From Bdellovibrionia bacterium (lineage in GTDB: Bacteria > Bdellovibrionota > Bdellovibrionia > Bdellovibrionales > JAGQZY01), in assembly GCA_030424715.1 (NCBI GenBank), contig JAUHWH010000002.1, positions 335,080 through 399,079 of the forward strand: DNA of 64,000 nt, given 5' to 3'. Made by a program: the position numbers and the translations under genes. Of this stretch, positions 42,405 to 57,610 are shown piece after piece (the first letter of the stretch is position 1; each line of letters opens with the position of its first letter). Under the pieces are notes generated by a model that saw only the letters and a list, made by a program, of their open reading frames with translations, was not told the DNA's origin and made no database searches.

Positions 42405-42492
42405 TCGCTCCACTCCTTTATACATTTTTGGGGCCACAGACTATGCACAACTGGGGGTGAAATCAAGACTTTATCGGAGGGTGGAGACCGGT

Positions 42493-42617
42493 GCGCCTTG
42501 TTTTACCGCAATTAGGAAAGCCCTGCTTTTCGGACAGTCCTCGCCTTTGAAATCCCTTTGGGATTTCTGGCTGCGGGACTCAATCAGGGCTTTCCTAATT
42601 GCGGTAAAACAAGGCGC
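42493..42617. repeat. 125-bp element with perfect 33-bp inverted repeats
   Basis: The left arm (42493-42525, starting gcgccttgttttaccgc) and right arm (42585-42617) are perfectly complementary over 33 bp. Inside, gaaatccc (42549-42556) pairs with gggatttc (42560-42567), and the remaining interior pairs imperfectly, so the whole can fold as one long hairpin. It encodes no protein and lies between DUF366 and fbaB. It looks like a small non-autonomous mobile or repeat element; no clear target-site duplication was seen. Confidence 0.9.
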
Positions 42618-42724
42618 TCCTCAGTGTTTGCTAAGACGTTTGTAGCCTTGGGGCTTTTTGCTCGACACTGCCGTTGTTCTTTGAACTTGGTGGGTTCTCA
42701 GATGTCTCATGGAGGGTCGCTTTG

Positions 42725-53386: not shown

Positions 53387-55491
<2,105 letters not shown>

Positions 55492-55498
55492 TTCCGGG

Positions 55499-55527
55499 AA
55501 AATAGAGGCTACGACGCAAGATCACAA
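55499..55527 (-). promoter_or_regulatory. Candidate queA promoter for a leaderless transcript
   Basis: On the minus strand TTGTGA (55522-55527), a 17-bp spacer and TATTTT (55499-55504) precede the queA ATG at 55491, leaving seven bases between the -10 box and the start codon. Confidence 0.4.
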
Positions 55528-55529
55528 GC

Positions 55530-55557
55530 AAAAAAAGGGAGAGCACTTCGCTCTCCC
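55530..55557 (-). terminator. Strong intrinsic terminator on the minus strand upstream of queA
   Basis: The stem is gggagagc (55537-55544) with gctctccc (55550-55557) around a five-base loop, followed on the minus strand by seven T residues (55530-55536). It lies before queA, so it ends some other transcript coming from the 55.6-55.9 kb region. Confidence 0.75.
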
Positions 55558-55873
55558 TGTAAAGCCTCTTTAATAATCCATGGGCTTTGAACACAACACA
55601 CTTCAGCCTAGCACAAGAGGCTAAATTTGTTGGCTCGCGTGGCGCGCGAGCCAACCAATGGGGAATAAACAACACAACTCTTTGGAGGTCTCACGACCGG
55701 TCATCATGACCATAACGAGCCTCCATCCTAGAGACCCGGGGCACCTTCTCGGTGCTTATTAATTAGATACTTGAGACCCACGATCGGTTAGAGTTTTTTG
55801 TAATTAATGCACAGTTTCGAACTGAGCCCTCTGGGCCCCCAAAATCAAGACGCACCGTTGACTTTGGAGGAGG
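55530..55873 (-). ncRNA. Candidate structured non-coding RNA of about 340 nt
   Basis: Read on the minus strand, a possible -10 (TATAAA, 55880-55885) is followed by successive hairpins and ends in the terminator at 55530. Stems include gcacc/ggtgc (55741-55755), a long branched hairpin ggaggtctc (55684-55692) with gagcctcc (55717-55724) enclosing ggtca/tgacc (55699-55711), an 11-bp GC stem (55629-55639 with 55645-55655), and agcctctt/aagaggct (55563-55570 with 55615-55622). Two further gagaccc copies (55731, 55773) could compete for the ggtctc arm. It does not match RNase P RNA, tmRNA, SRP RNA or preQ1 aptamers that I can recognise. The 5' end is a guess. Confidence 0.4.
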
Positions 55874-55907
55874 CCCAAGTTTATAAAATGTCTTCGATTT
55901 TCCCAAT

Positions 55908-55946
55908 GCGCCAGTGTTGGAATTGGTAGACAAGCCAGCTTGAGGG
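55908..55946 (+). pseudogene. 5'-half tRNA-Leu remnant
   Basis: These 39 bases match the first 39 of the intact tRNA-Leu at 56124 in 36 positions, from the acceptor 5' strand through the D arm to the anticodon loop (cttgaggg), then diverge at once. It cannot form a tRNA. Confidence 0.85.
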
Positions 55947-55959
55947 CATTGCGCGACGA

Positions 55960-56003
55960 CTTTTCAGGGTTTTTTATTGTTACAAGCCTGTTACCCTGAA
56001 AAG
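55960..56003. repeat. Inverted repeat with 11-bp arms
   Basis: cttttcagggt (55960-55970) is complementary to accctgaaaag (55993-56003). A six-T run follows the left arm, and the loop holds two GTTAC motifs, the second sharing bases with the right arm. Confidence 0.75.
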
Positions 56004-56074
56004 ACAGGAACTTAGGAGCTTAAAAATTATTTTTGGGGCTCTCTAAAAAAATAGGCTGGTAACACTATTGTAAC
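55979..56074. promoter_or_regulatory. Four GTTAC motifs in two opposed pairs with 11-bp spacing
   Basis: GTTAC occurs at 55979-55983 and 55990-55994; its complement GTAAC at 56059-56063 and 56070-56074. Spacing within each pair is exactly 11 bp, one helical turn. Such opposed pairs suit a dimeric regulator or recombinase arm sites. No binder is known. Confidence 0.45.
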
Positions 56075-56078
56075 TAAA

Positions 56079-56102
56079 GAGTCTACCCGCTAAGGTAGAC
56101 TC
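56079..56102 (+). other. Hairpin directly upstream of tRNA-Leu
   Basis: gagtctacc (56079-56087) pairs perfectly with ggtagactc (56094-56102). A second, weaker stem tcacaa/ttgtga (56101-56106 with 56118-56123) fills the space to the tRNA 5' end. These may be part of the tRNA precursor leader. Confidence 0.5.
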
Positions 56103-56123
56103 ACAAGACCGAAGGCGTTGTGA

Positions 56124-56212
56124 GCGCCGGTGGTGGAATTGGTAGACACGCCAGCTTGAGGGGCTGGTCCTGAGTTCTCGGGGTGAAGGTTCAAGTCCTT
56201 TCCGGCGCACCA
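56124..56212 (+). tRNA. tRNA-Leu (anticodon GAG), with encoded CCA
   Basis: An 89-nt class II tRNA with acceptor gcgccgg/ccggcgc, discriminator A and genomic CCA. The D arm is ggtggaattggtaga-like, the anticodon stem ccagc/gctgg holds loop ttgaggg (anticodon GAG at 34-36), and a variable arm tcctgagttctcgggg and T loop ttcaagt follow. The integrase stop codon starts at the very next base, so the 3' end is the likely attachment site of the adjacent element. Confidence 0.95.
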
Positions 56213-57610
56213 TTAACCTAGCTTTCGGTTCTTATAAGATTCAAGACTTACCACAGACTCAGACAACTGGTTGACCTTCTCAGCCAGCTTGTTTCTGTCT
56301 ATTTGCTTCTCTCCTCCATAGTGAACCTGATTCACCACTTGGTTATGCCCCAAAATTGCACAACGTTCTTTCAATTCTAAACCGGCTTTCTCTGCTTCAG
56401 CATTAAAACCTCGTCTCATATCATGTCTTGTATAAGGGACTTTCACATCATGACGAGTCTTCACTCCCCCTTTATACTTACCATGCTTCGTTCCTCCACT
56501 CTCATCACTGGGAACGTCATACGAACGGGCTTCTACTAAACCAGCAGCCACAAAAAGGCCTCCCCAAGCTCCTCTAATATTATCCACTCTTCTAAAAACA
56601 GTGTTTCGCCTGCTTGATAGACCTCTATCAACCATGGTGAAAATAAAAGAGGCTTCAATGACTTCTTTTTTCATTATTCCCTTCTTATTTTTAATCAAAG
56701 TGTATCCTACCACTCGATGAACCTTCGCCCGTTCAATCAGTGGAATTAATAACTTGATCAAATTGTCAGATAAAGGAACAACTCGCTCTTTAGAAGTCTT
56801 TGGACTCCAGCCCAATTGATCCTTTGTTGGACAGTCCTCTTTATTTTGGACTCTCCAAATCTTTTGCTCAAGATCAATGTCGTCAACTTCTAAATGAAGA
56901 GCCTCGCCCATTCGGGCTCCCGTAGAAAAAAGAAAAAAGGCAAATTCTTTAATGGGAAACAAAAAGCGATGCTTGTAGTCTGCTGCCATTAGCTTCTCTA
57001 CAACATCAGGAGGTGTTGCCACTGTTCTTGCCCGTTTATCAACATCGACCCGAATGGGGTCCACCTCTAAACAAGGATTGGTCATAATCATTTTTCTTTT
57101 TCTTAACCATTTAAACAGTTGCTTCACCGCTTTTAATTTTCCCTTCGCAGTCACTTGGGAAATCTTTTTACACTTAACCAGCATCAATAAATGCTCACGA
57201 TATTTATAAACATGCTCTTCCTTAACTTTATAAACTAAGTCGATCTTCAGAGTTTCTTTGAAAAAAGTAAACTCTGATTTTAATTGCCAACTCATCGTTT
57301 TAAAGTAACTGCGAGAATGCTCGACTTCAATGGAAGCCAAATATCTTGCAATCGCCTCATCAATCGTATTGACCTTATTTGAAGACCTTTCCATTTTCTC
57401 AATCTCTTTAGGAGTGAAAAGACCTTTGGCAAGGTCAGCCGCTTTTAAGGCTGCATTTCTTTCCGCAACGGACTGTTTGTTAGCTGCAAAACAGTAAAAC
57501 CAAACATCACCTGGAAGCTTAAACTTCCAGTGCCACTTAGAACCCCGTTGATAAGTGTAAACCTTCGGACGGTAATTGTACGGTACTTCAATTTGAATTA
57601 ATTCATTCAT
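56213..57610 (-). CDS. int: Tyrosine recombinase/integrase of the tRNA-Leu element
   Basis: A 465-residue phage-type integrase. The catalytic set is Arg233 (STGARMGEAL), a Lys near 273, His396 and Arg399 (RHDMRR), His422 (LGHNQ) and Tyr431 (VHYGG). An N-terminal arm-binding part (residues 20-70) and SAM-like core-binding domain (80-180) precede. Its stop codon directly follows the tRNA CCA, the usual position for tRNA-targeting elements. It overlaps the excisionase-like gene by four bases. Confidence 0.92.
   Translation of the reverse strand: MNELIQIEVPYNYRPKVYTYQRGSKWHWKFKLPGDVWFYCFAANKQSVAERNAALKAADLAKGLFTPKEIEKMERSSNKVNTIDEAIARYLASIEVEHSRSYFKTMSWQLKSEFTFFKETLKIDLVYKVKEEHVYKYREHLLMLVKCKKISQVTAKGKLKAVKQLFKWLRKRKMIMTNPCLEVDPIRVDVDKRARTVATPPDVVEKLMAADYKHRFLFPIKEFAFFLFSTGARMGEALHLEVDDIDLEQKIWRVQNKEDCPTKDQLGWSPKTSKERVVPLSDNLIKLLIPLIERAKVHRVVGYTLIKNKKGIMKKEVIEASFIFTMVDRGLSSRRNTVFRRVDNIRGAWGGLFVAAGLVEARSYDVPSDESGGTKHGKYKGGVKTRHDVKVPYTRHDMRRGFNAEAEKAGLELKERCAILGHNQVVNQVHYGGEKQIDRNKLAEKVNQLSESVVSLESYKNRKLG

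Follow-up and report, generated by a model that had tools for sequence, protein, structure and literature searches.

Introduction

CsrA-binding small RNAs of the CsrB/RsmZ type combine hairpins, a terminator and repeated ANGGAN loops, and preQ1 riboswitches are located before queuosine genes. For Bdellovibrio bacteriovorus, one report describes the intergenic sRNAs APsRNA1-7 and merRNA, which are 98-655 nt long and have strong predicted structure, mapped starts and expression; merRNA contains a c-di-GMP riboswitch and is poorly conserved outside its lineage (PMC3627812). In the tRNA-dependent lysogeny of actinobacteriophages, integration uses a short core that does not reconstruct the tRNA, and the phage itself supplies a tRNA of that isotype (PMC10865867).

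Here we describe a structured region beside queA in a genome of the Bdellovibrionia, within a window of 64,000 nt (the whole stretch of DNA that was analysed). We tentatively read this region as a short transcription unit, specific to the lineage and ended by a terminator of its own, giving an sRNA that possibly also carries a peptide, and assign this reading a probability of roughly 0.4. That the region gives a structured RNA is plausible but unproven, and its function is putative; a limited search, which does not prove absence, found no published record of this RNA.

Structure of the region upstream of queA

The region is flanked by a tRNA-Leu fragment on one side and by queA on the other. 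The features considered below are as follows, with P denoting pairing probability.

55528..55875, minus strand: putative short transcript, the structured region, about 345 nt; fold z -4.25 / -5.02; no homologue in the searches below
54481..55491, minus strand: queA; Pfam Queuosine_synth
55529..55558, minus strand: intrinsic terminator AGGGAGAGC-GAAGT-GCTCTCCCT plus T7; stem of 9-10 bp
55563..55622, minus strand: AGCCTCTT/AAGAGGCT stem; P 0.49
55629..55655, minus strand: 11-bp hairpin GTTGGCTCGCG/CGCGAGCCAAC (55655-55645/55639-55629); P 0.94
55686..55779, minus strand: long-range helix GGGTCTCA/TGAGACCT (55779-55772/55693-55686), 8 bp; P 0.71
55716..55738, minus strand: hairpin CGGGTCTCTA/TGGAGGCTCG (55738-55729/55725-55716), 10 bp; P 0.94
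55741..55755, minus strand: hairpin GCACC/GGTGC (55755-55751/55745-55741), 5 bp; P 1.0
55831..55878, minus strand: 5' hairpin TTGGGCCT...GGGCCCAG; P 0.80-0.94
55621..55713, minus strand: 30-aa ORF starting with ATG, preceded by GGAGG; no Pfam match
55880..55906, minus strand: promoter-like TTGGGA-15-TATAAA; 9/12, not above chance

At least six stems are predicted in the minus strand between 55875 and 55528 (348 nt). The helix of the 5' hairpin (55867-55859/55847-55839) has 9 bp with P 0.94, and the AGCCTCTT/AAGAGGCT stem has as rivals a short AGCC/GGCT hairpin and the 5' end. The terminator hairpin (55558-55536) pairs with a probability of 0.98 and is followed by T7. The stems and the terminator with seven T residues that an earlier note on this DNA had described are thus present where it placed them, with helices of P 0.71-1.0. 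Its suggestion that extra gagaccc copies could give alternative folds fared less well: the 348 nt contain GGTCTC twice (55778, 55736) and GAGACC once (55692), and the predicted fold fits these copies into one structure, not two competing ones. It is quite improbable that the region represents a new structured RNA class, confined to the genus or family and expressed between tRNA-Leu(GAG) and queA, that pairs or binds protein through gagacc and the GC-rich stems.

The distance from the terminator to the start codon of queA is 38 bases, and this position, with a terminator in between, is what a cis-regulatory leader of queA (an attenuator or riboswitch) would occupy. However, the terminator with its P of 0.98 is constitutive in the model and the predicted ensemble contains no competing antiterminator, which makes it unlikely that the region switches queA. 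At E-values up to 5 the locus matched no riboswitch, preQ1 or other. We therefore regard a queA leader as very improbable.

Based on the fold energy, the region is well structured. The minus strand from 55875 to 55528 folds at -128.7 kcal/mol (z -4.25), none of 100 shuffles was as stable, and a second shuffle set gave z -5.02. The plus strand of the same DNA reaches z -5.45, so the fold signal is not strand-specific. When the terminator is removed the score is -3.69, and when the 11-bp hairpin is removed as well it is -1.87, which means that these two elements together make up most of the signal; the stretch 55800-55680 alone gives z -3.4. Among 183 minus-strand tiles of 348 nt in the window, four have z below -4 (mean -0.78, sd 1.53), these tile scores being rough because only 20 shuffles were made per tile. 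The region folds well, yet it is no outlier sufficient to prove an RNA.

These scores bear on the possibility that we are looking at a fast-evolving spacer devoid of RNA function, whose terminator merely halts stray transcription ahead of queA. A strand-symmetric fold that falls to z -1.9 without the two hairpins would suit such a spacer, as would the orientation of the upstream element genes (int and others), which point the same way, and the absence of conservation by BLASTN or covariance model reported below. The failure of all 100 shuffles to fold equally well and the z of -3.4 for 55800-55680 alone argue against it, and we consider a spacer rather unlikely.

Elsewhere in the window, a 39-nt inverted repeat (42490-42528 / 42582-42620), 95% complementary with its arms 53 nt apart, forms the most strongly folded tile (z -11.7). 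This repeat, at 42490-42620, is possibly a small mobile-element remnant.

Known RNA families and homologues

The earlier note had failed to place the region among known RNAs and had proposed an Infernal search against Rfam. With gathering scores, cmscan of the whole window against Rfam 15 found tRNA-Leu alone, and nothing at the structured region; when 54900-56500 was scanned permissively, at E-values up to 5, the only additions were weak matches on the tRNA or next to it. The region therefore matches no known family. The covariance models for RNase P, 6S, tmRNA and SRP RNA had no match at this locus. RNase P RNA (212.7 bits) and tmRNA (161.1 bits) lie elsewhere in the genome, as does 6S RNA (57.8 bits), each above its family cut-off.

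Searches for homologues gave a consistently negative picture. BLASTN of the region at E <= 0.001 against overlapping sets of 59 and 143 genomes matched its own genome only, and the short matches obtained in 103 of 140 genomes at E-values up to 1 were taken as chance. There was no match among plasmids. Seven phage records were matched, all inside bases 1-123 of the query, its queA-distal tRNA part. We also built a single-sequence covariance model, R1, from 55740-55560 (181 nt of the 3' half, terminator excluded). In 140 genomes at E-values up to 1, R1 found its own locus (237.8 bits) and two weak matches (E 0.12 and 0.19), one of which falls within a coding sequence, a long reading frame, of G001, the sole genome of the same genus. 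E-values of 0.0002 and 0.0004 for R1 came from a search of the two matching loci alone and carry no weight. Against 29 queA loci the model found nothing at E-values up to 10. Conservation of the structured RNA is thus not supported by BLASTN (143 genomes) or by the covariance model (140 genomes). In G001 there was no match for queA or tgt, and after the yajC-side match contig C100 continues for 205 bases and then ends, from which we conclude that the locus is missing from that assembly.

Promoters and coding potential

The unit that we favour would span roughly 345 nt between the native tRNA-Leu(GAG) and queA, would be read on the queA strand, and would be ended before queA by its own strong terminator. 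We infer its transcription, its start site and an RNA product. The sole candidate promoter is TTGGGA-15-TATAAA; in shuffled versions of the 651 nt that were searched, about 1.2 sites of this quality would be expected. The best candidate for queA itself, TTGTGA-17-TATTTT at 55527-55499, is weak (8/12), and a stricter scan of 55300-56300 listed none. The earlier note had argued from a separate queA promoter that the hairpins need not belong to a queA leader; with weak candidates and a 9/12 site at chance level, promoters do not establish this independence. Of its structured RNA candidate, the stems, the co-directional intrinsic terminator and the lack of an Rfam match held, while promoter independence and conservation did not.

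The region also contains a 30-aa ORF preceded by a Shine-Dalgarno sequence, so an mRNA is possible too: a structured 5' leader, the Shine-Dalgarno sequence, the ORF (55713-55621) and the terminator would together make the mRNA of a small protein. GGAGG lies 6 bases 5' of the ATG, and 101 of 5000 shuffles yielded an ATG ORF of at least 30 codons with a Shine-Dalgarno-like 5-mer. By eye, small ORFs with Shine-Dalgarno sequences also occupy the interval from tRNA-Leu to the pre-queA terminator in two relative loci (L006 and L008). On the other hand, the 30-aa peptide has no Pfam match and is unlike the L006 and L008 peptides by eye, and its Shine-Dalgarno sequence is buried in the 3' arm of the 10-bp CGGGTCTCTA/TGGAGGCTCG hairpin. 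We judge an mRNA for a small protein unlikely. For the short transcription unit that we prefer, the product would most likely be a structured, trans-acting sRNA from the intergenic region, or else an sRNA of dual type that also carries the 30-aa ORF.

The queA neighbourhood in related genomes

We compared the locus with 29 queA loci of relatives; nine distant loci from a QueA scan of genome contigs were left out of further use. A tRNA-Leu(GAG) divergent from queA was present in seven of the 29 (L005, L006, L008, L012, L019, L021 and L023), as counted in flanks of about 1.5 kb or less. Between this tRNA and queA, small ORFs were seen by eye in L006, L008 and L021, a secreted-protein gene lies on the opposite strand in L019, and L005 and L012 have no clear ORF by eye. 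A terminator on the queA strand upstream of queA was found in 7/30 loci (L006-L010, L014 and the window), this figure being the union of two finders that disagree (4/30 and 5/30 loci). A short unit ending at this point is therefore a known layout in the order; it recurs just before queA and its content is not conserved. In the same family, the queA-strand terminator of L010 comes after a protein gene by eye. L005, also of this family, shows by eye the same tRNA-Leu, a short gap and the terminator layout, and has AGGCTnAAGTGTGTTG in common with our locus; its similarity is within chance (score 30 vs a shuffle maximum of 33), and neither terminator finder reported it.

We also noticed, by eye, that several genomes of the order (L004, L006, L007 and L008) encode near queA a small protein of approximate sequence ALxDLxxLTxELxxLA, followed in L006 and L008 by a short membrane-like peptide. 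A family of small secreted proteins (L015, L019 and L042-L061) shares conserved AExCG and FC motifs. Of 140 genomes of the order, 17 have this family, and in two genomes (G037 and G028) it adjoins queA.

The last neighbour raises the possibility that the region is the decayed plus-strand gene of such a secreted protein. Its DNA alignment to the queA upstream region of L019 scores 48, which none of 12000 random segments equalled, and one plus-strand frame scores 51 against p19, with 6/12000 as good. The null was drawn from part of the window and from loci L004-L041, with L015 and L019 excluded; a first null was set aside because it contained loci picked for similarity. However, p19 gave nothing in the other five frames and p15 nothing in any of six, and six in-frame stops were counted by eye. 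The family profile, built from 22 ORF hits with identical ones merged, had no match here among its best 27 at E-values up to 25. For this reason we do not regard the region as a secreted-protein remnant: the DNA score is attractive, the profile speaks against a pseudogene, and we consider such an origin extremely improbable.

A split tRNA-Leu(GAG) beside the region

The tRNA-Leu fragment that borders the region belongs to an interrupted gene, and the structured region falls outside the element that interrupts it. The relevant features are as follows.

55908..55946, plus strand: interrupted native tRNA-Leu(GAG), 5' half; its final 7 bases (55940-55946) form the core at the left end of the element
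55940-56212, 56213-57610 and onward to G000:C8:419809-419866: parts of the element in the window and beyond
56124-56212: intact, diverged tRNA-Leu(GAG) of the element

The native tRNA faces queA, and its 3' half lies at G000:C8:419809-419866. Joined at their common TTGAGGG, the two halves give a complete tRNA-Leu(GAG), with the 7-bp core forming the anticodon loop in the ARAGORN drawing. One acceptor-stem pair differs between the joined tRNA (A-T) and the intact tRNA of the window (G-C). The element between the halves measures 28,790 bp and is of conjugative type; it carries its intact tRNA next to its integrase (a Phage_integrase protein) and also encodes FtsK/SpoIIIE, TrbI, sub-threshold CagX, TraC_F_IV and TraG P-loop proteins. 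This split-tRNA element is a clearer finding than the RNA itself.

At 55955-56010 and 56079-56102, the left end of the element contains an inverted repeat, CTTTTCAGGGT / ACCCTGAAAAG, seen by eye, and a GAGTCTACC hairpin. These features are possibly sites for the integrase or a regulator.

Comparison with known systems

If it is transcribed, the region would add one lineage-restricted small RNA or micro-protein to an order that has received little study, in an interval between tRNA-Leu(GAG) and queA whose content differs from relative to relative. By itself it alters no general picture. A conjugative-type element that disrupts an anticodon loop and supplies a substitute tRNA would mean that tRNA-dependent integration is not confined to phages, which is testable. 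Both marks of tRNA-dependent lysogeny described for phages are present, but in a conjugative-type element, and the arrangement appears by analogy to resemble the phage system (PMC10865867).

The position of the region ahead of a queuosine gene is that of preQ1 riboswitches, from which it differs in having no aptamer match and a terminator that is constitutive in the predicted ensemble. With the CsrB/RsmZ-type RNAs it shares hairpins, a terminator and one UAGGAUG loop, but it has only 4 GGA in 348 nt, no repeated ANGGAN loops by eye and no Rfam match; a CsrA sponge was considered by eye and ruled out by this GGA count. An intrinsic terminator with a U-tract, as looked for in intergenic bacterial sRNAs, is found in the region. 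The sRNAs of B. bacteriovorus differ in having mapped starts and expression, and merRNA in containing a c-di-GMP riboswitch (PMC3627812), which Rfam does not find in our region. It is like these sRNAs in its intergenic location, its size range, its predicted structure and its poor conservation, the last being stated there for merRNA.
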